From a virus: a DNA stretch of 40,441 nucleotides. The DNA lies in the IMG/VR virus record IMGVR_UViG_3300033148_003115, positions 1 through 40,441 of that record. One strand, written 5' to 3'. Shown here one piece after another: positions 3,099 through 22,352 of this stretch. The number at the start of each line of letters is the position of its first letter. Positions within the stretch are counted from its first letter, which is position 1. The translations under genes were made by a program, and so were the position numbers. The notes under the pieces are model-generated. The model ran no database searches, had not been told where the DNA came from, and was given only the letters and a program-made list of their open reading frames with translations.

Positions 3099-3694
3099 AT
3101 GTCCCCCTTTAGATACTTACACTGCTTTGCGTACTTTAATCCTACATGTGAACCTATATCAAAGAAATACCCATCAGCAACAACTTCTTTGAACGGTATA
3201 CATTTGATAATATCGTCTGTATGTATACCTTTCCTAAAGAACTTGAAACATTTATCTTTGAATATATATATACCAGAACACTCTATCTTATCATTTAGCA
3301 TGTTCTTAGCCATAACTTTAATCGCAAAATTCTCGTTGTCTTTCGAGAACCCTTTCTTGATACTGTTTATATCTATGTTATGGTATGTATCACCATTAAC
3401 TACTGCGAATACTTTTGCGTTACCTATGAATGGTCTAGCATATAAGATAGCACCAGAGTGGCCCATTGGTTCATCTTCTTCTGCGTATTCTATCCAGATA
3501 TCATTCTCTTTGCACCAAGACTTGATAGATTCTTTCATGTGTCCAATACTCATGATGACATCATATTTCTTATACAGCTTTAACAGATAGTGAAGGAATG
3601 GTTTACCATGTATACTAGATAACACCTTTGGGTGATACTTAGTAAGAGGTAGTAATCTAGTTCCTTTGCCACCTGCAAGAATCAGTACTTTCAT
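3095..3694 (-). CDS. hddC: Sugar-1-phosphate nucleotidyltransferase, HddC-like
   Basis: A 199-aa nucleotidyltransferase with the N-terminal nucleotide-binding signature VLILAGGKGTRLLPLT (residues 3-18), the PK pair at 22-23, and the metal-site phrase NGDTY near residues 99-103. Members of this family join a sugar 1-phosphate to an NTP. Beside an HddA-like kinase the likely reaction is transfer of GMP to D-glycero-alpha-D-manno-heptose 1-phosphate, giving GDP-heptose. It is somewhat shorter than typical HddC. The final motif DIGSHVGLKYA resembles the usual C-terminal end, so it looks complete. The base specificity (GTP versus CTP) cannot be read from the sequence. Confidence 0.8.
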   Translation of the reverse strand: MKVLILAGGKGTRLLPLTKYHPKVLSSIHGKPFLHYLLKLYKKYDVIMSIGHMKESIKSWCKENDIWIEYAEEDEPMGHSGAILYARPFIGNAKVFAVVNGDTYHNIDINSIKKGFSKDNENFAIKVMAKNMLNDKIECSGIYIFKDKCFKFFRKGIHTDDIIKCIPFKEVVADGYFFDIGSHVGLKYAKQCKYLKGDI

Positions 3695-7000: not shown

Positions 7001-9020
7001 TATCAAGGTCGCCAGCATTAGAATAGCTGATATCACAATACTCTACAGAAACCACACCAGAAGTTATTGCCCAATAATGTTCAGCAGATGTTGTACTCGC
7101 AATAGTTATTTCGTTACCTGATGTACCGACTGCTGAGAGACTTCCAACCACAACGAGCATACCAGCAACAACTTTTATACTATTATCTTGTCCTATTGTA
7201 AATGCATTTGTAACCGTAATTCCCCGAGATATGGTAAGCTCTCCAGAACTAGCATCTACAGTCAGAGAATCAAATATATCCGCATCTTCAATGTTAAGCG
7301 TTCCAGTTCCTGTCCATACTACGTCTGGAAATGAATTGCGAGCACCTTCCCACTCACCAGCTCCAGTAGTGTTACAAGTGATAGTGGCTGTTCCGGGTAT
7401 TACAGTTAAATTAGTACCACTATTCAAATCCATTGGGGCGGCAGAATGACCATTTAATATCCACGCACCAGAACCAAGGTCTATTACTCTAGTTAAACTG
7501 TCTGCGCTAGTAAGAGAATAAGCTGTTACATCATAAGTGTCAGCATCAAAAGTTCCTGAGTTTACTCTCATTCTTCCACTATTGCCAAGGTCAAGATTAC
7601 CCACCAAAGTAAGAGAGCCACCGACACCATTTACATACAAATCAGAAGCATGTGACTTAGCGGCGGTAACAAAAGTTTCAGCAGACTGACTAGCAAATGT
7701 AAGTGTTCTCGTTCTGGAAAGACTCATACCAGATATTAATGTTAAGCTACCATAAATAATTGAATTTTGTGATGTTACCGTCATGGTGGGGGTATTAGTT
7801 GCCCCCGTCCAATCTATGTCTGTAGCGTATAATCTTATATTAAAGCTTACACTTTGGCCACCACCACTAAATGAATTAGAATCGAAGAAAACATTATCTT
7901 GAAGTAGAGGTCTTCTTGCTCCACTAGAACCACCACTAGAAGTTGCCCAAGTGTCATCAGTCCAGTTTCCACTATCTCCTACCCAATATAAATCGTCAGA
8001 AGCTGGAAATGTAATACCGGTATTACTTAAACCATCTCCCACATCATCTTGAGCAGAGAAATCCCACGATGCCGCACCAGCTCCAGTAATTTGAATTATA
8101 TCACAGTTAGTAACATTAGCAGTATCAGCCGTAATAGTATACCCAGCAGTTGCATTACCTATTAAGCGACCTCTACTGTTTTGGCTATTACCAGTAAAAG
8201 TAAAAGTATCCGTAACTACTTGGTCAGCCTCAAGAAATAATGACCCTGCCCAGCTAGCATTAGTACGCGTCAAGTTTGTAAATGTATTTTCACCACGAAG
8301 ATATGGGCTATAAGACATAGTTATATTAAGGGCATAGTACGTCTCACCCCCACCATGGATGAACGTGGCGTTTGAACTAGCAGTAGTCATTGCTATAGTA
8401 CAAGTCTCTTCGTTTAGTGTAAGATTGGTTATAGTACCAATATTGAAATTCGTACCGCCACCACCCGTAACGGTTAAGGTATTACCAGCACCCATGGTAA
8501 GTGTTCTAGTGTTAGAGTTGCTACTATTAAAAACCAGACCCCGTACATCAACATCGTTGAAATCTAGTGTACCTTGAGTAAGTGTTAAATTGTACTCACA
8601 GGTAAGATTATCTTGTAGAGTCCAATCACCTGTTCCCGCAAATGTAACAGACCCAACCGTCTTTCCACCTAACGTAACAGTTTCAGAACCAGCACTATTA
8701 AATTTAAGTTCAGCCGCAGAACCAGCAGAAATAGTAAATGTCATACCAGCTACTAACGTCATAGACCCAGATATAGTTAAGTCAGCACTACTGCCTTGTT
8801 GCATAGTGTCTGTATATCCAGTGCAATCTAGACCATTACAAACCGCGTTACTACCAAAATTTATTACACAGGGCCCAGAATTAGCATCAAAGTAAACATC
8901 ATCAGAAGATGTAGGAACACTTGCATCATCCTGCACACCTGATGCAGTTCCCCAATTAGTATCGCCTGTAGCGTCCCAATCAGTTGATGACCCACCATCC
9001 ACCCAATATCTGTCTGCCAT
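4071..9020 (-). CDS. Giant fibre-like virion protein with mucin-like Ser/Pro segments
   Basis: A 1649-aa protein and the largest gene here. Residues 1 to about 690 are beta-rich, with many short Thr/Ser/Asn/Gly strands opening [17 protein letters not shown], a type of start seen in phage surface proteins with beta-helical or G8-like folds. About 700-846 form another beta domain. Residues 847-903 are a first Ser/Pro/Ala segment. Residues 905-1110 look like a LamG/DUF1349-like jelly roll ([16 protein letters not shown] onward). Residues 1111-1587 are a long run of SPSASPS/SPSVSxS units. Residues 1588-1649 are an acidic tail with DTDVN repeated. No signal peptide or membrane segment is seen. Its place before tail genes suggests a tail fibre or surface decoration that binds cells or glycans. 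The start is ATG with AAAGGG. Confidence 0.7.
4262..5690 (-). repeat. Long degenerate SPSAS-coding repeat
   Basis: This is an in-frame array of short Ser-Pro-Ser-(Ala/Val/Ile/Thr/Gly)-Ser units, about 475 codons. Larger phrases such as [19 protein letters not shown] recur. Every second residue is Ser, and all six serine codons are mixed, so the DNA copies are much less alike than the peptide copies. The segment is expected to be extended and unstructured, like a mucin stalk. Confidence 0.9.
6310..6480 (-). repeat. Short SPSAS-coding repeat between two fibre domains
   Basis: About 57 codons of the same Ser/Pro/Ala repeat join the N-terminal beta region to the jelly-roll-like domain of the giant fibre protein. 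The same motif on both sides of one domain suggests linker duplication or domain insertion into a once continuous linker. Confidence 0.85.
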
Positions 9021-9022
9021 AT

Positions 9023-9379
9023 TTAACCCTTTGCGTCTATAGCATTACCTAACTCAGCGGCAATTTGTTCATGGCGTTGCTGTAGTTCTTCTAAATCTTT
9101 CTTAGTTCCTTCTTTTTTAAGAAGTTCTAAAGTGTGTTCTACATCTACTTGCTGTTGGTTTAATTGCTCTATCAACTCCTCGCGAGTAAGAGGAACAAGC
9201 TCTGCTGGTGGCACACTCTTCATGGCGATATATGAATTAACACGCTCCAGCTTATCAGCTTCTATGTCAGCTTCTTTCAACTTTGCATACTCGTCCTGTG
9301 TGTAATATAAAACATCATTACATTTACCCTTCACTGTCTGTTCACTAAACTTCACTTGAACCATAACTTTGTCTGCCAT
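9023..9379 (-). CDS. Small coiled-coil protein of unknown function
   Basis: A 118-aa charged protein. A short beta-like N-terminus ([14 protein letters not shown]) precedes two predicted helical stretches, the second ([14 protein letters not shown] through about residue 110) with heptad-like spacing. It has no membrane segment and no motif I recognise. It sits three bases from both the triple-fusion gene and the fibre gene, so it is probably made with the fibre and could be a fibre chaperone or trimerisation partner. That role is inference from position. Confidence 0.6.
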
Positions 9380-9382
9380 AAC

Positions 9383-11407
9383 TTATCCTTTCCTAATAAA
9401 ACAAATGTTTGGGAAAAACGATACGGATTGTATCTTGTGGTCTGTACCAATCTGCTCTACTTTAGTCTTTATAAAATCTACGATAGATATTTCCTTAAAC
9501 CGTTCCATGTAACTTACGTATATATCCTCAATAACGTATACCCCACCAGGCTTTAAGTACTTCCATAATGCATTATAGTTGTTTCTTTGCTCCTTGGGTA
9601 GATGTATTGCATCATCTACAATCAAGTCAAACATACCAAACTGCTTACCTATCTTATGTAACAACTCATTTTCTTTAATGTCCCCAGTAATAAGTGTTGT
9701 TCTTCCCTTGATGAACTTCATATCTAGCTTCCTATCATCTTTATCTATTCCATATATCTGTGCTCTAGGAAACGAATCGTGCCATAGAGCTAATGAAGAA
9801 CCCGTCTTAACTCCAAGCTCAAGTATCTTAATGTGCTTTGCTTGCTTATCACCCATATAGAAGTCATAATAGGGTGTATAAGAATGAACCCAATACTTGT
9901 CTGTTGTCTCCGCTCCATACTCTAAAAAGTGCTTAATTGCATTACCGTGTATAGTCTTCTCCGGGTCACCCCAAGATGCAGGAGGAATAAAGCTATGCGC
10001 AGTGTGGTCATCTCTCCATATTCTAACTGGTACCTTCTTCCAGCCCAACTGATGTATTATCTCTAGCCTCCTAGATCCACGAGTAATTACTAAGTACTCA
10101 CCATCAAGAAACATATCTAGCGGAGACTGTAATCCCTTCGTCTTTACACTTTCACAGAGCAACTCTAAATCTCTAATCTTGTTTACAACATGAAATCTAC
10201 CCTTAGTATTTGGTATACCCTTAGAACACACCATCGGGTTGAGTCTACTGACTAGGTATCTGTAATACTCTGATGCTTCTATCTCCATCTTAGAAAGCTT
10301 GCCACCTTTAAGTATTCTCTTAACCATAGACGGAAAGCATTGGTTAAGCCACTGAAGACCGTCAGTCTTATTCACTCTAGCATAAGATAACCTGTTCTTG
10401 TATAACTCCTCTACGTCAAAGACCCGGCCCTTGTTAATCCAAGAGGTAACCATCTTATTCTTATTGTACTTAAACTTTGCACGCTTGATGTCTGTCTTAA
10501 GATTCTTTACTTGTAATTTAGCATACTCCTGAGTGTATGGTTCCGGCATTTTCTTACTCTCTTCCCAAGTTGGTACTGGTGCAAACTTATTAACTAACCA
10601 CTTTAAATCTCTTTTCTGTAAGTGCCACTTACCACTTGTCCAGAACTTTATAGAATACTTACGAGCTTTTACTTGGTCAGAACCTTTAATCGCGTATGGA
10701 AAACCCACACCACCTCTAAAATAATGCGCAAACCAAGTCTTCTTGTTTACTTTTAACGAACCACCCGACAACCATGCTTTAAGCGCCATCTCAACGCCCT
10801 GCTGTCCCCAACTACCAGTCTTCTCATCACAACCACCTAGCTCCCAGTATCTATCTAGATGCATAAAGAAACAAGCACCTTGCCCTGTCATTACATCACA
10901 GATATCACCTTTAACGCGGTCAGAGCTTTTATGTATCTTGTGCTCTTTACGAAACTCACGCGCGGCAGGTCCGTCCCAATAGTTATGTCTAAAAGGTTTG
11001 TGCTTTGCATATGGAGCTCTTATCCACATAAAGTCAGTGACCTTACTGAGCTTAGGCTTCCACTTGTCTACGTCTAAGTTGTACATGCGTGGTATAACTG
11101 TCCAATCATACTCACAATCGGCGGCTAGCTTAACATCAAATCCCTCATCAAACATGCTGTGTCCATCAGTCTTCAAGATATACTTACCTTTGGCTATTCT
11201 AGCGCCTTCGTTAATACCTTGGCGTTGACCGATAGACCTAGCATGATGTACTAATATGATTCTAGGATCATCTTTAATAGGTGGGTCTGGCCAGTACCCA
11301 TCTAATATTGCTATGACTTCTATCTCTCCTCTAGAAGCAGATAGAATACTGTCAATAGTCTTTTGAAGATACTTCTCGTTACGAGCTGGGATAACTACAG
11401 ATACCAT
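9383..11407 (-). CDS. GT2 glycosyltransferase - ParB-like - methyltransferase triple fusion
   Basis: A 674-aa protein with three parts. Residues 1-265 are a GT2 (GT-A fold) glycosyltransferase: VSVVIPARNE, the metal-site equivalent KTDGHSM at 79-85, and an acceptor-side segment with WGQQGVEMALKAW near 200-212. Residues about 404-466 resemble ParB/Srx domains, with an ITRGSRRLEIIHQLGW motif then VPVRIW. Residues about 515-674 are a class I SAM methyltransferase: ILELGVKTGSSL at 528-539 (SAM loop), YGIDKDD at 552-558, VDDAIH at 597-602, and GGVYVIEDI at 621-629, most like MycE-type sugar O-methyltransferases. The GT part is paralogous to the next upstream gene. The ATG follows GGGAG. No frameshift was seen, so the fusion looks real. 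Confidence 0.8.
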   Translation of the reverse strand: MVSVVIPARNEKYLQKTIDSILSASRGEIEVIAILDGYWPDPPIKDDPRIILVHHARSIGQRQGINEGARIAKGKYILKTDGHSMFDEGFDVKLAADCEYDWTVIPRMYNLDVDKWKPKLSKVTDFMWIRAPYAKHKPFRHNYWDGPAAREFRKEHKIHKSSDRVKGDICDVMTGQGACFFMHLDRYWELGGCDEKTGSWGQQGVEMALKAWLSGGSLKVNKKTWFAHYFRGGVGFPYAIKGSDQVKARKYSIKFWTSGKWHLQKRDLKWLVNKFAPVPTWEESKKMPEPYTQEYAKLQVKNLKTDIKRAKFKYNKNKMVTSWINKGRVFDVEELYKNRLSYARVNKTDGLQWLNQCFPSMVKRILKGGKLSKMEIEASEYYRYLVSRLNPMVCSKGIPNTKGRFHVVNKIRDLELLCESVKTKGLQSPLDMFLDGEYLVITRGSRRLEIIHQLGWKKVPVRIWRDDHTAHSFIPPASWGDPEKTIHGNAIKHFLEYGAETTDKYWVHSYTPYYDFYMGDKQAKHIKILELGVKTGSSLALWHDSFPRAQIYGIDKDDRKLDMKFIKGRTTLITGDIKENELLHKIGKQFGMFDLIVDDAIHLPKEQRNNYNALWKYLKPGGVYVIEDIYVSYMERFKEISIVDFIKTKVEQIGTDHKIQSVSFFPNICFIRKG

Positions 11408-11408
11408 A

Positions 11409-12182
11409 TTATAGCTCCCATCTTGGCTTAATTACTTTCTTATAATAATCTCCCCATATGCCAAGAGAGTATTTGAATGATGCGTCAGAAGAGTCTCTTT
11501 TAATGTTATGAGTACGAGGAAACTTACGATGCTTGTGAGCATACCAAGTATACTTATTGAGCATCAACATACCACCAGCTTTCCATGTCTTAAAAGTCAT
11601 CTCTATTGAATCTTGATAGTGTGTTCCGTACCCTTCACTCTGTAACTCTTTAATAACTGTATCCCAATGCTTTCTAGACATTAACCAACAAGAACCTTGC
11701 ATAGCCATCTTCTCATCAAGCATAATATGAGCTCTATCTACATCACGACTACGCCACGGCACAGATGCGAACTTGTTTCTAGGCTGTACAATAATCAGCT
11801 TCTCATAATCAATATGTAAGTCGTTCATTACTTCCCACTTCACAGCCTCCAGCTTATATCTACGTGGTGTCACTATCCAATTATCATGGATGTATTGAAG
11901 CAACTTTACATCATAACCACTCCCAAACATACAATGTTCATCTACGCGCATTATGTACTTACCATGAGAAGCAGAAACACCAGCATTGATAGCACCTCTC
12001 ATGCCAACGTTCTTTTTAAGTATTACTGGCTTGATTCTCTTATCTTCTCTAAAAGGCTTCTTCAGCTCGTACCCATCAATAACAGGTATTATCTCTATGA
12101 CACCTTCTGAATTGTCAAGTAGTGAGTCTATTGTCTTATGAAGTAATGGGTCTTTATACGATGGAATAACGACTGAAATCAT
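11409..12182 (-). CDS. GT2 family glycosyltransferase
   Basis: A 257-aa single-domain GT-A enzyme: ISVVIPSYKDPLLHKTIDSLL at the N-terminus, KKNVGMRGAINAGV, then RVDEHCMF near residues 78-85 as the metal/nucleotide-sugar site. A C-terminal acceptor region has QDSIEMTFKTWKAGG and WYAHKHRKF. It aligns with the N-terminal third of the downstream triple fusion, so the two are paralogues. AAAGGAGGG precedes the ATG, and this gene begins a new unit after a 117-bp spacer carrying inverted repeats. Donor and acceptor are unknown. The DEHC-type motif and WYAHK end recall enzymes that glycosylate proteins, but that is only a hint. Confidence 0.8.
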   Translation of the reverse strand: MISVVIPSYKDPLLHKTIDSLLDNSEGVIEIIPVIDGYELKKPFREDKRIKPVILKKNVGMRGAINAGVSASHGKYIMRVDEHCMFGSGYDVKLLQYIHDNWIVTPRRYKLEAVKWEVMNDLHIDYEKLIIVQPRNKFASVPWRSRDVDRAHIMLDEKMAMQGSCWLMSRKHWDTVIKELQSEGYGTHYQDSIEMTFKTWKAGGMLMLNKYTWYAHKHRKFPRTHNIKRDSSDASFKYSLGIWGDYYKKVIKPRWEL

Positions 12183-12299
12183 GTGCCCTCCTTTATATTA
12201 TAACCAAAAAATAGCTACTTAACCTATACAATATATATAGATATATAGTAGCTCATATATATGAAAAGTGCGCCACTTCTTGAGATGTTAGCTACTATC
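12183..12299 (-). promoter_or_regulatory. Spacer with inverted repeats and a TATAAT box
   Basis: This 117-bp spacer is the longest within the glycan island. ATAGTAGCT (12245-12253) and AGCTACTAT (12290-12298) form a perfect 9-bp inverted repeat. Between them lies a small hairpin, AAGTG-CGC-CACTT (12266-12278), followed on the minus strand by TTTC. Nearer the downstream gene is a TATAAT (minus strand, 12197-12202) without a good -35 box, in very AT-rich DNA. It may combine a weak terminator with a promoter or operator. Neither is certain. Confidence 0.4.
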
Positions 12300-12827
12300 T
12301 TAAAACAGTCTAACAACTAACGGGTAAAGTATTGCCAGCACTATAGTTCCAATTATCCACGCTATAGTGTCTATGAACCCAAAAGCAACCCCAGCCATTA
12401 GACCTGTGAACAATCCTAGTGTAGCGCGTGTTAGTATGTCAGCATAGCGTTGAGCTTCGTAGTCATTATATACTGGCTTACCTCTACATACTGTTGTATA
12501 AATGAACGCACCAAGAGGCGAACCATCATCTTTTTTGAGACCATTACTATGCCAACCAGGTATGCCATACCCAGGCGTAAATGAAACAAACAGCAGTGGA
12601 ATAGCTAATAGTCCAAGTAGTGTCCACGAGCCTAAAGCAACAGCTATTCCAATCGTAGCTGAACAACCTAACCTCCTTATCGTTAGAGGTGTTTTATCAG
12701 CACCACCTAATGCCCACAAGTAACCTGACAAGAAGAACGCTGGTATAGCCCACCAACTCATAAAGAACGACCAAGCAACTACTTGTACTGCACCAACCAA
12801 CCCTTCTTCTGGATTAAGCTTCTTCAT
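12300..12827 (-). CDS. Multi-pass membrane protein
   Basis: A 175-aa hydrophobic protein with about four membrane segments: near residues 10-42, 50-82, 135-155 and 156-175. A polar loop (about 85-130) between the second and third contains PGYGIPGWHSNGLKKDDGSPLG. No transporter or flippase motif is recognisable. It is the only clearly membrane-embedded product within the glycan island and might anchor glycan enzymes, act in export, or be unrelated. GGGGATAAC precedes the ATG. Confidence 0.6.
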   Translation of the reverse strand: MKKLNPEEGLVGAVQVVAWSFFMSWWAIPAFFLSGYLWALGGADKTPLTIRRLGCSATIGIAVALGSWTLLGLLAIPLLFVSFTPGYGIPGWHSNGLKKDDGSPLGAFIYTTVCRGKPVYNDYEAQRYADILTRATLGLFTGLMAGVAFGFIDTIAWIIGTIVLAILYPLVVRLF

Positions 12828-12828
12828 G

Positions 12829-13353
12829 TTATCCCCCTAGCATATTGCTTGCCTGAGATTTCTTCTTATGAGCTATCAACGCTCCTATAGCATTTATCAT
12901 AAACCTCTCATCGCATCGCCGCTTAGTACCCATTATATGACTTTCGTAAGCAACTAGATTGTCTTTATCCCACAGAGCGTGTAAGAAGACGAATATTACA
13001 TCATCCTCATAGCTCATATAATACAAGTCATCTTCAAGTCGTCTATTCTTGATAAGATTGTCAGCCGACCCAATACTGTGTTGGTCTTCAAGACCAAACG
13101 ATAAATCAGATACCATATCTAGATGTAAGTCTTTACGCATGAAGTGGATATGGCTTTTATTTTCATTCTGAAACTTGTTAAATCCTTCCCGCTCTAAAAC
13201 CGTGCTAAATTCATTTATTAAATCGCTTCTGCAAGCTATGTCTACTTCATACTCACCATGCTTATAGTTTCTAGGCATTCTCAGAATACACCAATATGTT
13301 CTTGCGTCATTAAGCTGTCTACAAATATCTTTCAATTCTTCGTACGGTGTCAT
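12829..13353 (-). CDS. Protein of unknown function, possibly nucleotidyltransferase-like
   Basis: A 174-aa soluble protein. I chose the ATG at 13353 because AAGGAG lies eight bases upstream; a longer frame begins 36 bases earlier without a site. YWCILRMPRN, then GEYEVDIACRSD, LEREGF and KSHIHF spaced over residues 20-80 recall minimal nucleotidyltransferases of the uncharacterised type (an aspartate after a beta strand, then a helix ending GF). The canonical GS motif is absent, so catalysis is doubtful. It follows the ParB-like gene by 11 bp. Confidence 0.5.
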   Translation of the reverse strand: MTPYEELKDICRQLNDARTYWCILRMPRNYKHGEYEVDIACRSDLINEFSTVLEREGFNKFQNENKSHIHFMRKDLHLDMVSDLSFGLEDQHSIGSADNLIKNRRLEDDLYYMSYEDDVIFVFLHALWDKDNLVAYESHIMGTKRRCDERFMINAIGALIAHKKKSQASNMLGG

Positions 13354-13364
13354 AAAACATCTCC

Positions 13365-13898
13365 TTACGTTTTGTATAGTCCGAACCACTTATAAAAAAT
13401 CCACGGCACACCCGTTTGCCCACCAAATGGGGCAGTGTTATCAACGTAACATCTAATCTCACTATAACCAAGCTCTTGAAATGCTTTTAGTCTTGAATAC
13501 CCATCTAGCCTTTTGTATTTATGCTTGTCAGTTTTCTGTTCTTTAACAAGTATAGGTGTAATCTCATTACCTGTAGCTATGAGTTGCTTGACTATCTCTA
13601 TAGCTTCTCTATGCTTCTTGTCAGGCGTCTCGGCATGACCTTCATCACAATATTCTATGTCGCTAATCGGTATAGAAAGCACCTTATATTCCTTCATCTG
13701 TTCTATACGTATCTCTGTAAGTTTTTTCAGTGCTTCAGATAGTCCTTCTACAAGCTCAATAAAGTCACTATCGTTGAACCACAGTGATACATTCCTAAGC
13801 TGTATTCGTATAGTTTCTCTGTCTATAACTTCAACATAAAAATCTCTACTATACTTATTAGGTCTCTTTAATATCTTCTTCTCGAATAATCTTTTCAT
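13365..13898 (-). CDS. ParB/Srx-like domain protein with an N-terminal repeat domain
   Basis: A 177-aa protein. Residues about 28-63 (ETIRIQLRN... DFIELVEGLSEALKKL) match a 35-residue repeat found twice in the gene at 15158-15622. Residues 72-152 are ParB-like: a first strand VLSIPISDIEY, a middle ITPILVKEQ, and RLDGYSRLKAFQELGY (130-145), the position of the ParB nucleotide-binding arginine motif. ParB/Srx-fold proteins include DNA-segregation CTPases, sulfiredoxin and small-molecule kinases such as the archaeal serine kinase SerK. With no partition system here, the kinase-like role is worth considering. It overlaps the upstream fusion gene by 41 bp and has no strong ribosome site, so its exact start is uncertain. 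Confidence 0.65.
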   Translation of the reverse strand: MKRLFEKKILKRPNKYSRDFYVEVIDRETIRIQLRNVSLWFNDSDFIELVEGLSEALKKLTEIRIEQMKEYKVLSIPISDIEYCDEGHAETPDKKHREAIEIVKQLIATGNEITPILVKEQKTDKHKYKRLDGYSRLKAFQELGYSEIRCYVDNTAPFGGQTGVPWIFYKWFGLYKT

Positions 13899-15198
13899 AA
13901 TAGTGGCTTATAGCGGTTAATGTTCCTCGTTTAGTTCTACCATACACCTTATCCTTTACTTCCCCTAAGTACGCATGACAGTATGTAGATTCAACCTCTC
14001 TATGCGTATCATGTACATAGATATGACAGTCATCACTCCTCAGCTTACTTGCCATATATATGGACTGCATACGCCCAGGGTCAACATCTGCGTTACCCTT
14101 AGGTGAATCTATAATAATAATGTCCCACTTCGTATCAGATACAGATTCGTGTAAATCCATTTCAAGCTTTTCGTGGTTATTTAATAGCTCGCCCCACTGA
14201 GTCAGCTTTGTTTTATAATCAACTTTGTATATTTCTGCATTGCCAACAGACTCTCTTGTCTTGTCTATCCATTCATGTATGTTCTCAAGAAAAACTGTTC
14301 TTCCACCACGATTAGTAGTAGCCCAAAACTTACTATCGTGTCCCGTACCAAACACAAGCAGATTGCAAGGCTTAATCTTCTCAAGCTCATCGCAGATAAG
14401 AAGTAACTGTAATGGCGTTATCTTTATACCATCGTTACGCCACGCTCGTCTATAGAACTCTGGCGTACTTTTACGCACAGCTTTAAGATTGTTCTTCTTC
14501 CACTCTTCTATCGCGTAAGACTTACTACGTCCAGCATAATGTTTAGAAAAATGCGCTATAGCTGGTTCGTACTCGTTGCCTTTATACGGATAAACAATAG
14601 TGTTATCACGCAGTATAGCAAACTCTATAAGGTCTCCACAAAAATTATAAATACATGTATCAATGTGCGTAGCTTTAAGTTCATCATTTTCAACATGATT
14701 ACGTATAAACTTACCATCAGAATTAGAAAGCTCTCCTTCTTTCAAATACATATTCATCATTCTTCGAGCTGTGGTTCTATCCACGATAAAGATACCTGGG
14801 GATATATATGTCTTTCCAGATGGTGTTTTATCTATAAACATACCCTTATTAAACCCACCATGTCCAGCAATACCACCACCAAGTTTAAATAGGTTCTCTA
14901 GCGACTTGAAAACAACAACATCAATATCAACCCACATAACCTTTGTGTACTCAACTATACCCGCAAGATAGTGTTCAATCATCAAGGAAGAGTGCTTAAT
15001 ATGGGTAGTGTCTTCTTCGATGTATTCTATAAGATTAACACCGATAGCCATAAGCTCTTCTCTTATGTCATAGCTAACGCCACGAGATATAATACAATAC
15101 ATAGGTATTGATGGGTTACTCAACTTAAACGACACGAACATGTCTAAAGCATAACGCTCAAGCGCTCTGTCCGTTGCTGATATCATTACATTTAGCAT
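13858..15198 (-). CDS. Glycosyltransferase fused to a DUF579/GXMT-like polysaccharide methyltransferase
   Basis: A 446-aa, two-domain protein. Residues 1 to about 235 look like a GT-A enzyme of the GT8 type, with VMWVDIDVVVF at 87-97 carrying the DxD metal site. Residues about 265-430 closely match the pattern of plant DUF579 enzymes (GXM/IRX15 glucuronoxylan 4-O-methyltransferases): LLVFGTGHDSKFW (280-292), GGRTVFLE (298-305), WDIIIIDSPKG (358-368), PGRM (374-377) and YVHDTHREVE (394-403). Those enzymes methylate O-4 of glucuronic acid on xylan. Here the fusion suggests one polypeptide that adds a sugar and caps it with methyl, probably a uronic acid. GAGGAAGAAG precedes the ATG. It overlaps its upstream neighbour by 41 bp. 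Confidence 0.8.
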   Translation of the reverse strand: MLNVMISATDRALERYALDMFVSFKLSNPSIPMYCIISRGVSYDIREELMAIGVNLIEYIEEDTTHIKHSSLMIEHYLAGIVEYTKVMWVDIDVVVFKSLENLFKLGGGIAGHGGFNKGMFIDKTPSGKTYISPGIFIVDRTTARRMMNMYLKEGELSNSDGKFIRNHVENDELKATHIDTCIYNFCGDLIEFAILRDNTIVYPYKGNEYEPAIAHFSKHYAGRSKSYAIEEWKKNNLKAVRKSTPEFYRRAWRNDGIKITPLQLLLICDELEKIKPCNLLVFGTGHDSKFWATTNRGGRTVFLENIHEWIDKTRESVGNAEIYKVDYKTKLTQWGELLNNHEKLEMDLHESVSDTKWDIIIIDSPKGNADVDPGRMQSIYMASKLRSDDCHIYVHDTHREVESTYCHAYLGEVKDKVYGRTKRGTLTAISHYYEKIIREEDIKET

Positions 15199-15622
15199 CT
15201 TCTTCCTCTAGTACTTTTAGTGATTCTGCTATTGCTTTCGCAAATTGTTTGAACTCTGATTTACGTAGGTGCAACCTAAACTCTCTCATGTGTAGATGTA
15301 CGTCATCTTGCTTCTCAAGCTCTATCTTTAATCTGTTAGCATAATAATCACTGCTTTTATCTAAACGAACACCGTTATCATAACTAATTAGAAAGTCATG
15401 ATGCCCCGGCTCCCAACCATACTCAGCTATACCCTTAGCGACACCTTCTTTTAAAATAGTCAACGCGTTATACAGATTATCAAACTCGCGTTTCGAGAAA
15501 TCGTATCGAGTGTTTCTTATGTGTACATGTATTGTTTCACATAAATCACCCCACATAGAACTTGGAGTGATTGTTCTATTCTCAAGCTCTCCTTCGTATA
15601 ATACCTTTTTACAATTACCCAT
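15158..15622 (-). CDS. Protein with two copies of a 35-residue repeat domain
   Basis: A 154-aa protein of unknown function. Residues 29-61 (ETIHVHIRNTRYDFSKREF...) and 106-140 (DDVHLHMREFRLHLRKSEF...) are two copies of one unit: a strand with alternating residues ending in R, a second short strand, an EF pair, then a helix ending K-x-L-E. A third copy begins the ParB-like protein at 13365-13898. I chose ATG 15622, which overlaps the previous stop by eight bases and has GAGGAG 12 bases upstream. A GTG at 15679 would add 19 residues but lacks a site. Confidence 0.6.
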   Translation of the reverse strand: MGNCKKVLYEGELENRTITPSSMWGDLCETIHVHIRNTRYDFSKREFDNLYNALTILKEGVAKGIAEYGWEPGHHDFLISYDNGVRLDKSSDYYANRLKIELEKQDDVHLHMREFRLHLRKSEFKQFAKAIAESLKVLEEEDAKCNDISNGQSA

Positions 15623-15767
15623 TTGTAGCACTAACTCCTCTCTGCATGCCTTGTGTACCATCAGCAGTGACGCGCACACTCTTACATTCGCACACTATTT
15701 TTTTACATTTGTCACACCATTCAACATTAACTCGCCAAGAACCTCTACTTTTATTTCCTCTTGCCAT
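15615..15767 (-). CDS. 50-aa zinc-ribbon-like micro-protein
   Basis: A short frame beginning MARGNKSRGSWRVNVEWCDK, with CDKCKKIVCEC at residues 18-28, i.e. CxxC followed by CxC, a likely metal site. AGGGG lies seven bases before its ATG, inside the end of the ClpP-like gene, and its stop overlaps the next ATG. Such end-to-end coupling in a polycistron supports translation. Arg/Lys/Gly-rich flanks hint at nucleic-acid binding. No family is recognised. Confidence 0.55.
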   Translation of the reverse strand: MARGNKSRGSWRVNVEWCDKCKKIVCECKSVRVTADGTQGMQRGVSATNG

Positions 15768-16365
15768 TCTCAGCCCCTATTATTTCATCAGCTAAACCTA
15801 AATCAATAGCTTCTTTACCAGACAATATTGTGTCTATTGTACACATGTTACTAAGCGTCTCCTTTTTAAACTTTGGATGCTTAACGCGTATCCTCTCTAA
15901 GTATATGTCATACATCATCTCTCTTGTTTCAGCACAATACTTAGCCCACCTCTCAACGTGTTTAGGTGTACCAGATAAAGCTTCAAACCCATCGTGTATC
16001 ATATAACTACAATTTGGTGAAAGGATTCTTCTGTGACACGCTTGCATAATTATCGTACCCATACTACGAACCATACCAAATCCCACCATTGTAACATTAG
16101 ACCTTAAGCCTGTAATAACATCATATATTGCCATTCCTCTATCCCAGTCACCACCTGGGCTACTCCAGTACAACTTAATATCGTCATCATTCTTTTCGTC
16201 AAGGAACAATAAATTCTTTATAACCTTTCTTGAACTAGCGAAGTCCACACCTTCTTCTTCGTTATAGTCGTCAACATACTCACTCCCAAAATATATTATT
16301 CTAGCAGGTATTAAACAGTCGTAATCGTGAAACTTATCAAAATCATCTAATACGTATTTCTTCAT
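15751..16365 (-). CDS. ClpP-like serine protease (peptidase S14)
   Basis: A 204-aa ClpP-fold protease, close to normal ClpP length. WSSPGGDWDRGMAIYDVI (67-84) is the strand-helix with the oxyanion glycines, and the catalytic serine is S101 in VRSMG. H124 sits in YMIHDGF, and D178 in TIDTILSGKEAIDLGLADE. The triad is therefore intact. I chose ATG 16365 because AGGGGG lies five bases upstream; a 13-residue extension without a site is unlikely. Phage ClpP-like proteases usually mature capsids and sit by the portal. Here another capsid protease exists and this gene lies among methyltransferases, so its substrate is unclear. No Clp ATPase is present. Confidence 0.8.
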   Translation of the reverse strand: MKKYVLDDFDKFHDYDCLIPARIIYFGSEYVDDYNEEEGVDFASSRKVIKNLLFLDEKNDDDIKLYWSSPGGDWDRGMAIYDVITGLRSNVTMVGFGMVRSMGTIIMQACHRRILSPNCSYMIHDGFEALSGTPKHVERWAKYCAETREMMYDIYLERIRVKHPKFKKETLSNMCTIDTILSGKEAIDLGLADEIIGAENGKRK

Positions 16366-16373
16366 ATAACCCC

Positions 16374-16910
16374 CTATTTTATACCTACACCATTCATCTC
16401 CCATGATGAGTCAGGAGATAAAGCGTCGTTTAAATTATGTGGTGCTCTTAGTACAATATCTTTAAACCCAGCTGTCATCAAAACCCATATTAGCGTATCT
16501 GGGTCAAACCCGCTTACATGTGTGTTTTCTGGATAGTTTTGTCCACCATAGATATACATCCAAAAGTTTCGTCTGTCTATATTTCCTTTTAAATACTCAA
16601 GCATTAAAGCTCTCATGTTAGGTACTTTTATAACAACACGACCACCAAACTTTAAAACTCTTCTCCATTCAGCTAACACTAATATCGTGTTGGCGTGTGA
16701 TATCGTATCTTCTTGCGAACCAGTAAATCTACCATGATAAATATGTTCCAAGACGCTTTCAGCCAATATCTCATCTATTGAATTTGTAGCAAATGGCAAT
16801 CGTTTGCTTATGTCGCATACATGGTCAACATGTTTCATTGGCCTTAAATCTACGTTTTGGTACCCCTTATCACGGTAATCAATATTCCCACACCCAAACG
16901 CTAGTTTCAT
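16374..16910 (-). CDS. Class I SAM-dependent methyltransferase
   Basis: A 178-aa small methyltransferase beginning directly with the SAM-binding strand: MKLAFGCGNIDYRDKGYQNVD, then DHVCDISKRLPF (the motif II/III region) and AESVLEHI with EWRRVLKFGGRVVIKVPN, as in Methyltransf_11 enzymes with sugar or small-molecule substrates. It is a close paralogue of the protein at 18434-19003. GGGGG precedes the ATG. The acceptor is unknown; the context suggests a glycan hydroxyl. Confidence 0.8.
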   Translation of the reverse strand: MKLAFGCGNIDYRDKGYQNVDLRPMKHVDHVCDISKRLPFATNSIDEILAESVLEHIYHGRFTGSQEDTISHANTILVLAEWRRVLKFGGRVVIKVPNMRALMLEYLKGNIDRRNFWMYIYGGQNYPENTHVSGFDPDTLIWVLMTAGFKDIVLRAPHNLNDALSPDSSWEMNGVGIK

Positions 16911-16918
16911 TGTACCCC

Positions 16919-17434
16919 CTATTTACACTTTAACTTCCACCAGTCTGTTTCTCCTTCTGAAACGCCACCCAGTAATTCAGTTACGGCATTACGCACGTTT
17001 GCATCATTAAAGTCATGTCCGCATATAATACCACCAATACGTATTTTTGGTAACCAGCTTTCTACATCTAGCTTAACATCTTCATATTCGTGACTAGCAT
17101 CTATATATACTAAATCAATATCATCTGGTACATCACTCACAGCTTCATGTGAAAACTTTCTTATAAATGTAATGTCATTAAAACCATCTATGTTTTCTAG
17201 TAAACCATTCATGTTATGCTTATTCTCGGGATATTTAACATCAAAAGAGTCTATTAAATACATATGTTTAGGGTTAAGCTGAACGCGCATATCAAACGCA
17301 TGACGTCCTTTCCATACACCAACTTCAACTATAATGTTCGTCTTAGACTTAAAATGCTTTTTAGCAAATAGAATAGACGGTCTAGACACCCACACATTCT
17401 TTTCTGAAAACCGCTGTAAATGACCACTCGCCAT
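16919..17434 (-). CDS. Class I SAM-dependent methyltransferase (Methyltransf_24-like)
   Basis: A methyltransferase with NIIVEVGVWKGRHAFDM as the SAM loop, YLIDSFDVKYPE as the acidic second motif, DIDLVYIDASHEYEDVKLDVESW, and GGIICGHDF. This set is typical of Methyltransf_24/CmcI-like O-methyltransferases, where the aspartates bind a metal. I chose the internal ATG at 17434 (172 aa), which has AGAGG upstream. The frame opens up to 17515 but would then overlap the preceding gene by 134 bp. The exact start is uncertain. Its role is probably glycan O-methylation. Confidence 0.72.
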   Translation of the reverse strand: MASGHLQRFSEKNVWVSRPSILFAKKHFKSKTNIIVEVGVWKGRHAFDMRVQLNPKHMYLIDSFDVKYPENKHNMNGLLENIDGFNDITFIRKFSHEAVSDVPDDIDLVYIDASHEYEDVKLDVESWLPKIRIGGIICGHDFNDANVRNAVTELLGGVSEGETDWWKLKCK

Positions 17435-17924
17435 AACTTTCGTCACCTCTCCAATCAGACGCATTGATTGGCTTACTATCGCTATCCCATCTTCCGCGCA
17501 AATCGCAATGTACAAGACTTACCTCTAGCTGTTTAGTAATATTCAATATGTCTTTAATGTCATAGTCTTTTTTGTGACTACCATTACACTTTGGGTGCCC
17601 TACGTTGTAATAGAACTTTTTATCAGGCATGTATAGCGTTAGTAATCCACCACAGCGTAACTTCTTAATCCATCTTTTCAGTATATCTGGAACATCTTCT
17701 GACGGCGCATCTTCTAGTGCATGTGATGAAAATATATAGTCTAGTTCATTATCATTAAACGGTAGCTCACAGAAGATATCTGCGATAACGTCTACCGCAT
17801 TAGCATTATGCACATCAAGACCTACAGCATCTTTGTGTATTTTGTTGTCACCACAGCCTAAGTCAGCACCATGTCCATGACACCACTTAAGTAGTCTGTC
17901 TCTCGCTAAGTTTATATTGTTCAT
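17382..17924 (-). CDS. Class I SAM-dependent methyltransferase (Methyltransf_11-like)
   Basis: A 180-aa methyltransferase. GADLGCGDNKI (about residues 19-29) is the SAM loop, VGLDVHN the second motif, and DYIFSSHALEDAP with IKKLRCGGLLTLYMP the later motifs. ALEDAP replaces the more common LEH phrase. The C-terminus WSFTAVFRKE is the usual closing strand. It overlaps the TylF-like gene by 38 bp and shares the island's head-to-tail packing. The substrate is not predictable. Confidence 0.75.
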   Translation of the reverse strand: MNNINLARDRLLKWCHGHGADLGCGDNKIHKDAVGLDVHNANAVDVIADIFCELPFNDNELDYIFSSHALEDAPSEDVPDILKRWIKKLRCGGLLTLYMPDKKFYYNVGHPKCNGSHKKDYDIKDILNITKQLEVSLVHCDLRGRWDSDSKPINASDWRGDESYGEWSFTAVFRKECVGV

Positions 17925-18450
17925 ATTTCTGTATGTAGTAATCTTTCTGTTCTAGTTCAACATTAAGACCATAGCGCGCGGCAAATTCATCAACAGCCCT
18001 TGTAGCGCCATCGCAATGTTGCTCTCTATAATCATCTAGTCTAAAAACACCACCTACGTTAAGATTGTCATATAACGTTTCTAGAATAAGTTTGTAACCT
18101 TCATATAAATCGCAATCTATATTTATAAAGCAGAATCTTTTATCTTTTATAAGATGTATAGTATCGCTAAACATACCTTTGTAAATGACAATCTGTCCGT
18201 TACTTCCATTTGTACCAAGCCTGCGTAGCACTTGCGCTTCTGATGTATCTGAAAATCTATGTTCATAAAACACTACCGGGCTGTCGTGCTTAGATAGCTT
18301 AGGTAACCCAGTAAATGAGTCAAATAGATATAATTTCTTTTTATAGTACACTATAACGGCATACAATCTAGATGCTGATTCTCCTCCATACACACCGAAC
18401 TCAGCAACGTCACCATCACACGAACTAAATATCTTATGTATTAGATTCAT
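17887..18450 (-). CDS. TylF-like (macrocin O-methyltransferase family) methyltransferase
   Basis: A 187-aa protein with the TylF family's ordered motifs: DVAEFGVYGGESA (14-26, SAM loop), LFDSFTGLP (42-50, the family hallmark), INIDCDLYEGYKLILETL (109-126) and GGVFRLDDY (133-141), whose aspartates bind the divalent metal. TylF enzymes methylate sugar hydroxyls (for example a deoxyhexose of tylosin), and relatives occur in surface-polysaccharide loci. It is shorter than TylF at the N-terminus, so it may be a minimal version. Its ATG lies inside the upstream gene's end (17-bp overlap). Confidence 0.83.
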   Translation of the reverse strand: MNLIHKIFSSCDGDVAEFGVYGGESASRLYAVIVYYKKKLYLFDSFTGLPKLSKHDSPVVFYEHRFSDTSEAQVLRRLGTNGSNGQIVIYKGMFSDTIHLIKDKRFCFINIDCDLYEGYKLILETLYDNLNVGGVFRLDDYREQHCDGATRAVDEFAARYGLNVELEQKDYYIQKYEQYKLSERQTT

Positions 18451-19003
18451 CAGCTTTCTTTTTTTCGTGTTTTACTGCTATTACGAGCATCTCGTCATTA
18501 CCTTCTCTGCGAAATGGCTTATCGTGATACTGTCCATTCATGAACCCTATATCGTAAAACCCAGCTTTGTTTAGAACTTCAGTGATAAGCTCTTGGTCGA
18601 ACCCAATAAGATGTTGGTTCTCAACACACATTGTTCCGCCCCATGTCCATATTATGATGTCTTTGAGTTTCTGTCGACCTCCGGTGTAAGACTTAAATAT
18701 ACATTCACAATTAGGCACTTTTAATTTAAGCTTTCCACCAATTTTCAATACTCGTCTCCATTCTTCAAGTACCCATATTGTATTTAGTAAGACTATACCG
18801 TCAGCATCATATCTTGGTAACATGTGCGGGATATGCTCAAGTACGCTTTCAGCGTATATTTCATCTATACTGTTCTTCTTGAATGGCAATTCTTGACTAA
18901 TATCTATACAGTAATCAACGTGGTCAAATTTACGTATATCAACGTTCTTATATCCCTTATCCCTCAAATTAGAATTAGGGCCACACCCAAAAAATAACTT
19001 CAC
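18434..19003 (-). CDS. Class I SAM-dependent methyltransferase
   Basis: A 189-aa paralogue of the 16374-16910 protein. Shared landmarks are MKLxFGCG at the start, RDKGYKNVDIR, AESVLEHI near residues 51-58, EEWRRVLKIGG and KLKVPN. The pair flanks the three other methyltransferase genes, consistent with local duplication. The start is GTG at 19003, preceded by AGGGGG. The substrate is unknown; a glycan hydroxyl is likely from context. Confidence 0.8.
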   Translation of the reverse strand: MKLFFGCGPNSNLRDKGYKNVDIRKFDHVDYCIDISQELPFKKNSIDEIYAESVLEHIPHMLPRYDADGIVLLNTIWVLEEWRRVLKIGGKLKLKVPNCECIFKSYTGGRQKLKDIIIWTWGGTMCVENQHLIGFDQELITEVLNKAGFYDIGFMNGQYHDKPFRREGNDEMLVIAVKHEKKKADESNT

Positions 19004-19012
19004 TTTATCCCC

Positions 19013-19342
19013 CTAATCTCTGTTATAATATTCTACAATTTTATTTCCGTATAAAAGATTTGCCTTAAGTCTGTGTATGCCATCCTGCAACTTGCCATCC
19101 TTAAACGCAATAGGCTTAAGAGTCTCACCACTTTTTAGTATTTCATGAAATGCTGATATACGTATGCTCGACCATACTTGAATTAAGACTATAGAAAGTT
19201 TATCGTCCGTACATTCGCGTATAAGTCTTTCAAACAACCATCTCTCTTTCAACATATCTCGCATTGTTAAAGGTCTTTCGTCTTTATCAATGGCAATAAT
19301 TTCACCACGCTTACAGCGTATATCTGCAATTCTTATATACAT
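19013..19342 (-). CDS. ParB/Srx-like small protein
   Basis: A 109-aa protein. It opens with a strand YIRIADIRCKRGEII, as ParB-like domains do, and ends with LKPIAFKDGKLQDGIHRLKA and NLLYGNKIVEYY. LQDGIHRLKANLLYG matches the DGxHR-x-x-A motif seen in ParB/Srx-fold phosphotransferases and nucleotide-binding proteins. Between them lies a helical insert (MRDMLKERWLFERLIREC). Its ATG shares bases with the preceding TAA (TAATG), so it is translationally coupled to the GT2 gene. A DNA-partition role is unlikely in this setting. Confidence 0.6.
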   Translation of the reverse strand: MYIRIADIRCKRGEIIAIDKDERPLTMRDMLKERWLFERLIRECTDDKLSIVLIQVWSSIRISAFHEILKSGETLKPIAFKDGKLQDGIHRLKANLLYGNKIVEYYNRD

Positions 19343-20241
19343 TAAAGCTCCTCATATTCTCTATACGTGTATCCCATAGCCTCATATAACGCTCTAAACT
19401 TTCTTCTAGTAGCCCAACCATGCTGTGAAAAGATGCAATCATGTTTCTTAAAGAAGTACTCTCTTCCCTTCTTCTTCTCGGGAGATGCCGCGTACTCACC
19501 TTTTAATGAACATGTCTGAGATGCTCTGTGATAAACATACATAGTTGGTGCAAGATACGTCCTCCAGCCAGCATCGCGTATACGCCAGCATAAGTCCAAA
19601 TCTTCGTCCCAATTCAACCCAATTTTTTCATCGAACAAGTAACCATCTATATCCTTAATCATGCTTTTGCGTATTGCGCAACACCAAAGCGATGTCCATG
19701 CATCAAGGCTAACTTCATCTAAGTTTTTTGGAATTGACGCCATGTGAGTCTTAAGCCACTCTGGATTAGAATCTTGTATCTGCTTATATCTATCCTCTTG
19801 ATTATAGCTATCTTCTTTAATATCCTCATTCCGTAAGTCGTTGTTCTCGTAAGCTTTAATCATTCCACATTGTGGATAGTCTAAAAAAATCTTAAGAGCA
19901 TTAGTAACCCAGAAGTCAGTAGCTATAACATCGTTTTCTATGAGAAATATGAACGCACCAGATGCTAATTCAACTCCAGAATTAAACCCACCTGTCATGC
20001 CAAGATTCTTTTCATGTCGCACAACAATAGCACCTTGTTTAACAAACGATTTATTCAAATCTTCCCAGCCTTTTGCTGAAGATGCGCTATCTATAACTAT
20101 AAGCTCGTATGCTGGATAAATAGTATGTTCCTTAATACTCTTAAAAGTCCAGGCACTACACTCTAAAAGCCAAGGAGTTATGTTATGCATCAGCATAACT
20201 ATACTTACAATGGGTGGTGTCTTAATCGTCTTTTTTTCCAT
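19342..20241 (-). CDS. GT2 family glycosyltransferase
   Basis: A 299-aa GT-A enzyme. IVSIVMLMHNITPWLLEC is the nucleotide-binding start, YELIVIDSAS the first acidic motif, KNLGMTGGFNSGVE the following loop, and IENDVI the DxD equivalent. DEKIGLNWDEDLDLCWRIRDAGW contains the catalytic-base region. It is related to rhamnosyl/galactofuranosyl-type GT2 enzymes. I chose ATG 20241 because GAGGAG lies four bases upstream; a four-codon extension has no site. A C-terminal helical tail contains YFFKKHD. Confidence 0.83.
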   Translation of the reverse strand: MEKKTIKTPPIVSIVMLMHNITPWLLECSAWTFKSIKEHTIYPAYELIVIDSASSAKGWEDLNKSFVKQGAIVVRHEKNLGMTGGFNSGVELASGAFIFLIENDVIATDFWVTNALKIFLDYPQCGMIKAYENNDLRNEDIKEDSYNQEDRYKQIQDSNPEWLKTHMASIPKNLDEVSLDAWTSLWCCAIRKSMIKDIDGYLFDEKIGLNWDEDLDLCWRIRDAGWRTYLAPTMYVYHRASQTCSLKGEYAASPEKKKGREYFFKKHDCIFSQHGWATRRKFRALYEAMGYTYREYEEL

Positions 20242-21112
20242 AAATCTCCTCAAATTTTATAATGTCTTCCGGTTTAAGTTGATGTATGTTCTGTCTGAAC
20301 CAATGCTCGTCCTTATCTTTAATTCTGTACATAGCGTTATCGCCTGATTGGGTAGCACCATGTTTCTTCTTAACATAATTTCCATAATCAACCCACTTCT
20401 CTGCTAACCCTTCATGGAAATGAAACGACTGACCATAGTGATGGAATATCCTAGACCCACCTACGAGATACAGATTTAACCCTTCATCTAAGCATCTCCA
20501 CGAGTAATCTATGTCATCAAATCCACCTAACCCTAAAGCTTCGTCAATCTTACCAACTTTGTTTATAGCTAATCTGGTCATGATTGTAGCGCACAATGGT
20601 AACCAGTTGCCACTTACCATTTTTTTGTCTTGTGGTCTACCTGCAAACTTAGCTATTGTCCCTTCCATAAGTTTCATTATTTCATCAAGGTTTCCTTCTA
20701 AAGCCATGTATTCTTTACTTCCGCGATGTATCTGTACAGGCATCATTAAGGCACAGTCCGGATGTGAATTAAGACTGACCATCATAGGTGCTAGCCACCC
20801 CTTAGGTACCAACGTGTCGTTATTAAGCAATAAAACGTCATTGTTTCCAGCAAGGTCTATACCAACATTATTACCTCTAATAAAACCTAGATTCTCTGTC
20901 TGCGGATATACTTTAACTTTTGGATGCTTCAAATTCTGTAAGTATTTACTAGGACAGCAGTTAGGATTCTCAAGACATTTATTCTCAACTATAATAACGT
21001 CATATTCTGGATAGAGAGTGTTATTCAAAACAGATTCCAAGCACTCTATTGACATCTTTTCTATCTCATCAGTACGAGACCACCACAACAAAATTATACT
21101 AATCTTTCTCAT
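20222..21112 (-). CDS. GT2 family glycosyltransferase (rhamnosyltransferase-like)
   Basis: A 296-aa GT-A enzyme with ISIILLWWSRTDEIEKMSIE at the N-terminus, YDVIIVENKC, then ENLGFIRGNNVGIDLA and LLNNDTLVPKGW (the NND metal site). LGLGGFDDIDYSWRCLDEG carries the base, followed by HHYGQSFHF. The order matches WbbL/RfbF-like GT2 proteins that extend surface polysaccharides. It shares a four-base ATGA overlap with the upstream GT4 gene and overlaps the downstream GT2 gene by 20 bp. Confidence 0.85.
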   Translation of the reverse strand: MRKISIILLWWSRTDEIEKMSIECLESVLNNTLYPEYDVIIVENKCLENPNCCPSKYLQNLKHPKVKVYPQTENLGFIRGNNVGIDLAGNNDVLLLNNDTLVPKGWLAPMMVSLNSHPDCALMMPVQIHRGSKEYMALEGNLDEIMKLMEGTIAKFAGRPQDKKMVSGNWLPLCATIMTRLAINKVGKIDEALGLGGFDDIDYSWRCLDEGLNLYLVGGSRIFHHYGQSFHFHEGLAEKWVDYGNYVKKKHGATQSGDNAMYRIKDKDEHWFRQNIHQLKPEDIIKFEEIYGKKDD

Positions 21113-22146
21113 TTCGTCCCTCTCTTAGAGTTTATTAGTTCTTGTAAAAACGCTGAGTTTCTCTCAGCATCTTTCTTCCACGTCCAGTAGTCTCTCGCCC
21201 AAGTAGCGCCAGTAGCGCCTTTCTTGCGAGCTTCATCCTGGTTGTCAAATATATGTTTAAACAGATGTGTTAAATGTTCTTCATCTGGGATAGCTTGATT
21301 ACCTGGTAAGTAACCAGCTTTCTTTAGAGTACAATTAATTCTGTAGCCAGTGCTAGGCGTGCAATAATCTCTGGGTCCTCCAAAATCTGTGATAACAAGG
21401 GGTAGTCCGCATGCCATTGCTTCAATACCGGGCAATGCGAAAGAATCTCCTTCTGTTGGGAGTACGAAACAATCACTCGACCTAAGCATTTCTCCAATTT
21501 CGTATCTAGTGTGTTCTTGATAGACCTTCTCAATGTTCTTAACTTTAATGCCATAGTCTTTTAGATTCCCCCAACTGTTAGATTTTATTATAAGCTTTGC
21601 ACCTTTAACATCACCCAAAGCTTTTTCAAACGCATTTATGAGCGCATGAGTACCTTTCCTGCCTTGTGCTACAGCTATAGTTATAAACGTGAAGTCACTA
21701 CCCTTTTTTCTTTCTCTCGGAAAAAATACATTATCGTCAAACCCTTGTCCACCAACGTGTATAGGCGTTGTTACACCAGCGTCCTGAAATGCTTTCTTCG
21801 TAAACTGCGACAGTGCGAATATTCCATCTGCATGTTTATTATGTATTTCGGCAGTAGCTTCATCTACTAAATTGCTATCCCAACACGACAGACTTATCTT
21901 GACTATATTAGCTGGTACGTCTCTTAATTCTAGCATATCTCTAGCTAACCCTTGTCGTATGAAAACATCATAATGCTCATATCTAGACGACAAACACCCA
22001 TAAACTTTCATTGGGATACAGCCATACGTATTAGAAGCATGTATTGTAACGTTATGTCCACAGTCTAAAAAGCCTCCAACGTTACCTATGGTTGATATTC
22101 CCCATGACTGGTTATCACCTATCTCACCTTTAAATAATATGTTCAT
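21109..22146 (-). CDS. GT-B glycosyltransferase (GT4-like)
   Basis: A 345-aa GT-B fold protein. The N-terminal domain opens MNILFKGEIGDNQSWGIST. The C-terminal Rossmann domain begins near FTFITIAVAQGRKGTHALI. EGDSFALPGIEAMACGLP in the C-terminal half is the E-x7-E nucleotide-sugar motif of GT4 enzymes, followed by VITDFGGPRDYC. It is a retaining type by family. AGAGGC precedes the ATG. The sugar is unknown. Confidence 0.82.
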   Translation of the reverse strand: MNILFKGEIGDNQSWGISTIGNVGGFLDCGHNVTIHASNTYGCIPMKVYGCLSSRYEHYDVFIRQGLARDMLELRDVPANIVKISLSCWDSNLVDEATAEIHNKHADGIFALSQFTKKAFQDAGVTTPIHVGGQGFDDNVFFPRERKKGSDFTFITIAVAQGRKGTHALINAFEKALGDVKGAKLIIKSNSWGNLKDYGIKVKNIEKVYQEHTRYEIGEMLRSSDCFVLPTEGDSFALPGIEAMACGLPLVITDFGGPRDYCTPSTGYRINCTLKKAGYLPGNQAIPDEEHLTHLFKHIFDNQDEARKKGATGATWARDYWTWKKDAERNSAFLQELINSKRGTK

Positions 22147-22154
22147 ATTGCCTC

Positions 22155-22352
22155 TTATAGATTCTGTGCTCTTTCAGCTAGTTCTCTATTGTGTATTTCT
22201 TCACATTTAGGGTGATATGGTTTACTATCAGACTTATCAACCATCATAACCTCTGCAAATGAAAAACAATTACAATACTTACATCTACCAACAACTCTAC
22301 CTCTTCTTCCAGCCCACCCTAAAACCTCATATCTTGCATCCGGCTCGCCCAC
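22155..22352 (-). CDS. Small zinc-binding protein
   Basis: A 65-aa protein with CKYCNC near residues 24-29 and a downstream YHPKCEEIH, giving a plausible Cys/His zinc site. The N-terminal part (WAGRRGRVVGRC) is basic. The start is GTG at 22352 with AGAGAGG upstream, overlapping the end of the methyltransferase gene by 26 bp. It resembles small phage zinc ribbons of unknown role and could bind nucleic acid or a partner enzyme. Confidence 0.6.
   Translation of the reverse strand: MGEPDARYEVLGWAGRRGRVVGRCKYCNCFSFAEVMMVDKSDSKPYHPKCEEIHNRELAERAQNL

Follow-up and report, generated by a model that had tools for sequence, protein, structure and literature searches.

An open reading frame (ORF) of a tailed phage probably encodes a bifunctional enzyme, which would first attach a sugar to a phage glycan, probably one of the virion, and then O-methylate it. 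The ORF was found in a 40,441-base IMG/VR virus record, which is referred to here as the window. It extends from 13858 to 15198 on the minus strand, begins with ATG, and encodes 446 amino acids, with a glycosyltransferase (GT)-like N-terminal half and a C-terminal half belonging to the GXM/IRX15 family of methyltransferases. These coordinates are exactly those of an earlier sequence-only reading, which left the strand unstated. PHROG matches in the window include the terminase large subunit, portal, head maturation protease, major head protein, and minor tail protein of a tailed phage. The fusion protein itself matches no PHROG, and single-protein scans detected nothing closely related to it or to either of its halves. 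The ORF overlaps both of its minus-strand neighbors by 41 nucleotides, which suggests translational coupling. The 5' neighbor is located at 15158 to 15679, and the 3' neighbor, at 13365 to 13898, encodes a ParB-like domain (phrog_3951, E = 4e-8; PF02195 below the cutoff). A short repeated element (like IHVHIRNTRYDFSKREFDNLYNAL) appears by eye to be common to the two flanking proteins.

The family assignment of the C-terminal half is based on profile matches. A DUF579 domain had been proposed for it under the accession number PF04669, which the Pfam search of the fusion protein did not return. The plant IRX15/GXM family, formerly DUF579, is PF21729 (IRX15/IRX15L/GXM) in the Pfam version used, and this profile matched the C-terminal half significantly over two stretches (E = 4e-36, 124.8 bits, cutoff of 27.8). 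In NCBIfam, TIGR01627 (A_thal_3515) matched with an E value of 2e-35 and 122.5 bits, under its curated cutoff of 149.85. A profile constructed from relatives without the window gave the real protein 197.9 bits, and none of 5000 shuffled sequences exceeded 10.4 bits. Judged by these scores, the GXM/IRX15-family match is far above chance. The window protein thus resembles the PF21729/DUF579/TIGR01627 family in its profile match, motif order, and predicted S-adenosylmethionine (SAM) methyltransferase fold but differs in being phage encoded, in carrying a GT-like half, and in scoring below the TIGR01627 cutoff.

The PF21729 domain covers residues ~254 to 420 (13939 to 14439, minus strand) and contains all of the motifs listed in the sequence-only reading, in the order given there. 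They are motif I, FGTGHDS, which is the SAM-binding glycine loop (residues 283 to 289; 14332 to 14352), GGRTVFLE with the acidic end of strand 2 at E305 (residues 298 to 305; 14284 to 14307), WDIIIIDSPKG (residues 358 to 368; 14095 to 14127), PGRM (residues 374 to 377; 14068 to 14079), and VHDTHREVE (residues 395 to 403; 13990 to 14016), all on the minus strand. In an alignment of 39 distinct domains, with no plant sequences among them, 13 residues are invariant, namely, G284, G286, N296, G299, E305, W358, D359, D364, P366, R376, D397, R400, and E403, and D288 is conserved in 38. AlphaFold2 (25 sequences) predicted the GXM half with a pLDDT of ~95, and in a Foldseek comparison the model resembled class I SAM methyltransferases, such as MnmM, a caffeoyl-CoA O-methyltransferase-like protein, and TrmR. 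The PDB matches shown by Foldseek included no GXM structure. From its domain membership and predicted fold, the C-terminal half is predicted to be a SAM-dependent O-methyltransferase belonging to the PF21729 family, which would act on a glycan, as do the plant members.

The domain had been regarded as a plant one, but it is not restricted to plants. An IMG/VR profile scan with nine aligned domains as the profile identified 50 viral loci encoding a GXM domain, mostly as stand-alone ORFs of ~180 to 200 amino acids. Many of these genes adjoin UvsX-like and other T4-like phage genes, and their neighbors include Nucleotid_trans (11 of 70), GT8, GT29, and GT25 glycosyltransferases, methyltransferases, sugar nucleotidyltransferases, cytidylyltransferases, and pyruvyl transferases. 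Among bacteria, a scan of 395 genomes from one phylum, Bacteroidota, identified members in 6, and another member is encoded on a Priestia plasmid. These bacterial TIGR01627 proteins share ~37 to 44% identity with the window GXM half and differ from the fusion in standing alone, without a GT domain. In the phylogenetic tree, the window GXM domain forms a long branch that is nearest by path to the bacterial domains. The dN/dS ratios ranged from 0.025 to 0.33 in 11 of the 12 computable pairs of relatives, a comparison that leaves out the window fusion itself, for which no close homolog was found; the twelfth ratio was 0.50 and is based on 6 substitutions. The viral GXM relatives are under purifying selection. 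Among 50,697 records of cultured phages, searches with the window protein, with its GT half alone, and with two viral GXM sequences gave no match, and the Priestia query gave only two matches, both of which were rejected as being at chance level. A literature search that took in a minority of subscription journals returned no report linking DUF579 to phages. By their sequences, the "plant" GXM methyltransferases also constitute a phage enzyme family.

Fusion or close linkage of GT and GXM domains recurs in other phages. In L074 and L075, both of which are contigs carrying phage minor tail protein genes, a GT8 domain stands directly N-terminal to the GXM domain (E = 6.5e-25 and 7e-23, respectively). 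The domain order is RXYLT1_C/GT47, GT8, GXM, and GT34 in the L074 protein (907 amino acids) and GT25, GT8, GXM, and GT34 in the L075 protein (988 amino acids). These proteins, which like the window fusion come from tailed phages, have their GT8 domain where the window protein has its GT8-like half but differ from it in their extra GT domains. Their GXM domains branch elsewhere in the tree, so the window and L074/L075 fusions are perhaps independent in origin, although a single origin of the GT8-type fusions received a p-AU value of 0.06 and is not firmly rejected. In L006, L041, L046, L064, and L068, a DxD GT gene (Nucleotid_trans) abuts the GXM gene, with a spacing of -1 to +2 bp. The gene order there (core ~7100 to 10600) is DxD GT, GXM, GT29 sialyltransferase-like, PseF-like cytidylyltransferase, and HpcH/HpaI aldolase-like genes. 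Other architectures were also observed. A protein of 1286 amino acids in L073 (6675 to 10532, plus strand) contains two tandem GXM domains flanked by a Stealth domain on one side and a capsule-synthesis domain on the other, both flanking matches being under the cutoffs, and the proteins of L034 and its relatives have an extra N-terminal part of 346 amino acids besides GXM. A 619-amino-acid fusion in L076 was considered doubtful, since its N-terminal part looks like an artifactual reading frame of GC-rich DNA.

In the window, the fusion gene is part of a glycan cassette (9383 to 27501, minus strand) that lies between the head and tail genes and contains GT2 and GT4 genes, with a double GT4 at 24277 to 27501, and TylF-like and several other methyltransferase genes. 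The cassette includes a second GT-methyltransferase fusion (9383 to 11407, minus strand), with an N-terminal GT2 domain, a ParB-like stretch (residues 411 to 467), and a Methyltransf_24 domain (residues 529 to 629), and its presence in the same phage favors a bifunctional reading of the GXM fusion. As noted above, the gene that follows the GXM fusion also encodes a ParB-like domain. A ClpP-like protease (15751 to 16404, minus strand) is encoded inside the cassette, and the head maturation protease is a separate gene at 30537 to 32216. Near the tail genes, at 2076 to 3694 on the minus strand, are genes for an HddA-like heptose-7-phosphate kinase and an HddC-like nucleotidyltransferase (guanylyltransferase), whose best NCBIfam matches were NF049969 (291.6 bits) and NF049965 (72.1 bits), yet both are under the equivalog cutoffs. 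Two related phages, G401 (55 kb) and G402 (37 kb), retain the order of head genes, double GT4, GT4, methyltransferases, nucleotidyltransferase, sugar kinase, and tail gene, with protein identities to the window phage of mostly ~40 to 64%. The HddA/HddC-like genes are conserved in both. The PF21729 domain is absent from G401 and G402 although the cassette is kept, which indicates that the fusion gene is variable cargo in a conserved glycan cassette.

Virion proteins are the most likely carriers of the glycan, given the location of the cassette between head and tail genes, which is kept in the relatives. A virion target is also favored by a precedent in cluster O mycobacteriophages, in which an O-methyltransferase beside three GTs is said to modify the capsid and tail tube (PMC11600133, citing Freeman et al. 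2023). The likeness is one of gene neighborhood, a phage O-methyltransferase adjoining GT genes, and the passage describing it mentions no fusion. The enzyme might instead decorate a host surface polysaccharide, serving receptor masking or superinfection exclusion, which we regard as rather unlikely. Phage GTs that alter the host O-antigen are well known, and the size of the cassette would suit such a role. However, the cassette runs on the same strand as the head and tail genes between which it keeps its place in G401 and G402, and no membrane-anchored Gtr-type genes were noticed incidentally in the window.

In the proposed mechanism, the GT half would add a sugar to the growing glycan, and the GXM half would methylate a hydroxyl of the sugar just transferred. 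The joining of transferase and methyltransferase in a single polypeptide fits this sequence of steps because plant GXMs act on glucuronic acid (GlcA) only in its polymer-bound form; PtrGXMs methylate GlcA-Xyl4 and not free GlcA or UDP-GlcA (PMC3921138). Plant GXM (glucuronoxylan 4-O-methyltransferase), which acts on xylan GlcA, is a type II Golgi membrane protein anchored by one N-terminal helix (PMC3921138), whereas in the window protein, by inspection, the GT-like half (residues 1 to 246) replaces the membrane anchor. The sequence-only reading had taken xylan GlcA methylation as the model and suggested that the sugar, perhaps a uronic acid, might cap a chain. In this more specific form, the phage protein would mimic the GUX-GXM pair of plants, the GT half transferring a GlcA-type uronic acid and the GXM half making 4-O-methyl-uronic acid. 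Plant GUX enzymes belong to GT8, the family confidently found fused to GXM in L074 and L075. The characterized members, GXM and the arabinogalactan methyltransferase AGM, methylate O-4 of GlcA residues that are part of a polymer (PMC3921138, PMC6508755), AGMs being required for the same GlcA methylation on arabinogalactan (PMC6508755). In addition, of 18 GXM phage records, 7 encode a PF03721 protein (UDP-glucose/GDP-mannose dehydrogenase), and the four nucleotide-sugar dehydrogenase ORFs that were read have a GxGGxCFPKD-type motif and match nucleotide-sugar dehydrogenase models. Short nucleotide-sugar dehydrogenases of ~280 to 300 amino acids, with the catalytic-Cys motif present, occur in the GXM-carrying phages L119 to L121 and L123. 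However, among 24 T4-like control contigs without GXM, PF03721 was found in 3 over the cutoff (Fisher p = 0.07) or in 5 at E <= 0.001 (p = 0.30), so the enrichment is not significant, and most of the positive GXM records represent two lineages. The window differs from the plant system in having no uronic acid pathway gene; no PF03721 match was obtained in it, although the host could supply the uronic acid. Its own nucleotide-sugar genes appear to be of the heptose type, and the PDB structure nearest to the L074 GT8 domain is LgtC. A xylan- or GlcA-specific reading is therefore not supported, and a uronic acid-transferring mimic of the plant pair seems unlikely.

The N-terminal half (residues 1 to 246; 14461 to 15198, minus strand) is most likely a DxD glycosyltransferase of the GT-A type. 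This probable assignment draws on its DxD motif, a sub-threshold GT8 match, its rank against shuffled sequences, and the analogy to the fusions of other phages. The motif, D91-I-D93 within VMWVDIDVVV (14920 to 14928, minus strand), aligns with those of phage GTs and is invariant between the window and the GTs of L006, L041, L046, L064, L068, L074, and L075. PF01501 (GT8) matched with an E value of 0.0018 and 18.3 bits, below the cutoff of 24.3. The order of GT8-like motifs is kept, and of the C-terminal HxxGxxKPW-type motif, which reads HFIGKHKPW in L074, only H216 is retained (HFSKHYAGR). Among 20,001 sequences, comprising the real one and its shuffles, the window half ranked 29 against the phage GT profile (A7) and 772 against the GT8-pair profile (A6). 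The full-length AlphaFold2 model has low confidence over most of this half, and prediction of the half alone gave a mean pLDDT of 46. GT-only rows were excluded from the first structure job because MAFFT misaligned the GTs when GT-only and full-length rows were combined. A scan of the 395 Bacteroidota genomes with the GT half returned 3 weak matches, of which 2, in Rieske-type oxygenase-like ORFs, were dismissed as chance. The earlier description of a GXM domain fused to a phage DxD glycosyltransferase thus stands for the GXM half, the DxD motif, the single ORF, and the glycan cassette but is weakened by a GT half that falls under the GT8 cutoff and lacks a confidently predicted fold. The same weakness qualifies the proposal that one protein adds and methylates a sugar, which is otherwise favored by the cassette and by the recurrence of GT8-GXM fusion or GT/GXM adjacency. 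The sub-threshold score and low-confidence model would suit an N-terminal half that is not an active glycosyltransferase and leaves the methyltransferase to work alone, but the DxD motif, the GT8-like motif order, and the GT fusions or adjacent GT genes of other phages make this improbable. Modification of phage DNA bases by the cassette, for which there is a parallel in the pentose reported on cytosine in Shewanella phage Thanatos (PMC12838424), is highly improbable, since the heptose-type genes indicate a protein or cell surface glycan and no base-hypermodification gene was noticed among the ORFs scanned.

The GXM observation is real, and the domain is commoner in viruses than could be known from the window alone. 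A domain characterized in plant cell wall synthesis is a recurrent phage gene, both stand-alone and fused to GTs, and O-methylated sugars are predicted on phage glycans. In a broader and improbable scenario, tailed phages, perhaps repeatedly, fused GT8-type transferases to GXM-family methyltransferases as single-chain counterparts of GUX plus GXM that place a uronic acid on virion glycans and 4-O-methylate it. In that scenario, the enzymes of the plant wall would represent a single branch within a larger family of glycan methyltransferases from bacteria and phages. The phage genes offer soluble single-chain or two-gene systems for GXM chemistry, and the prokaryotic relatives of the plant GXM family become directly testable.
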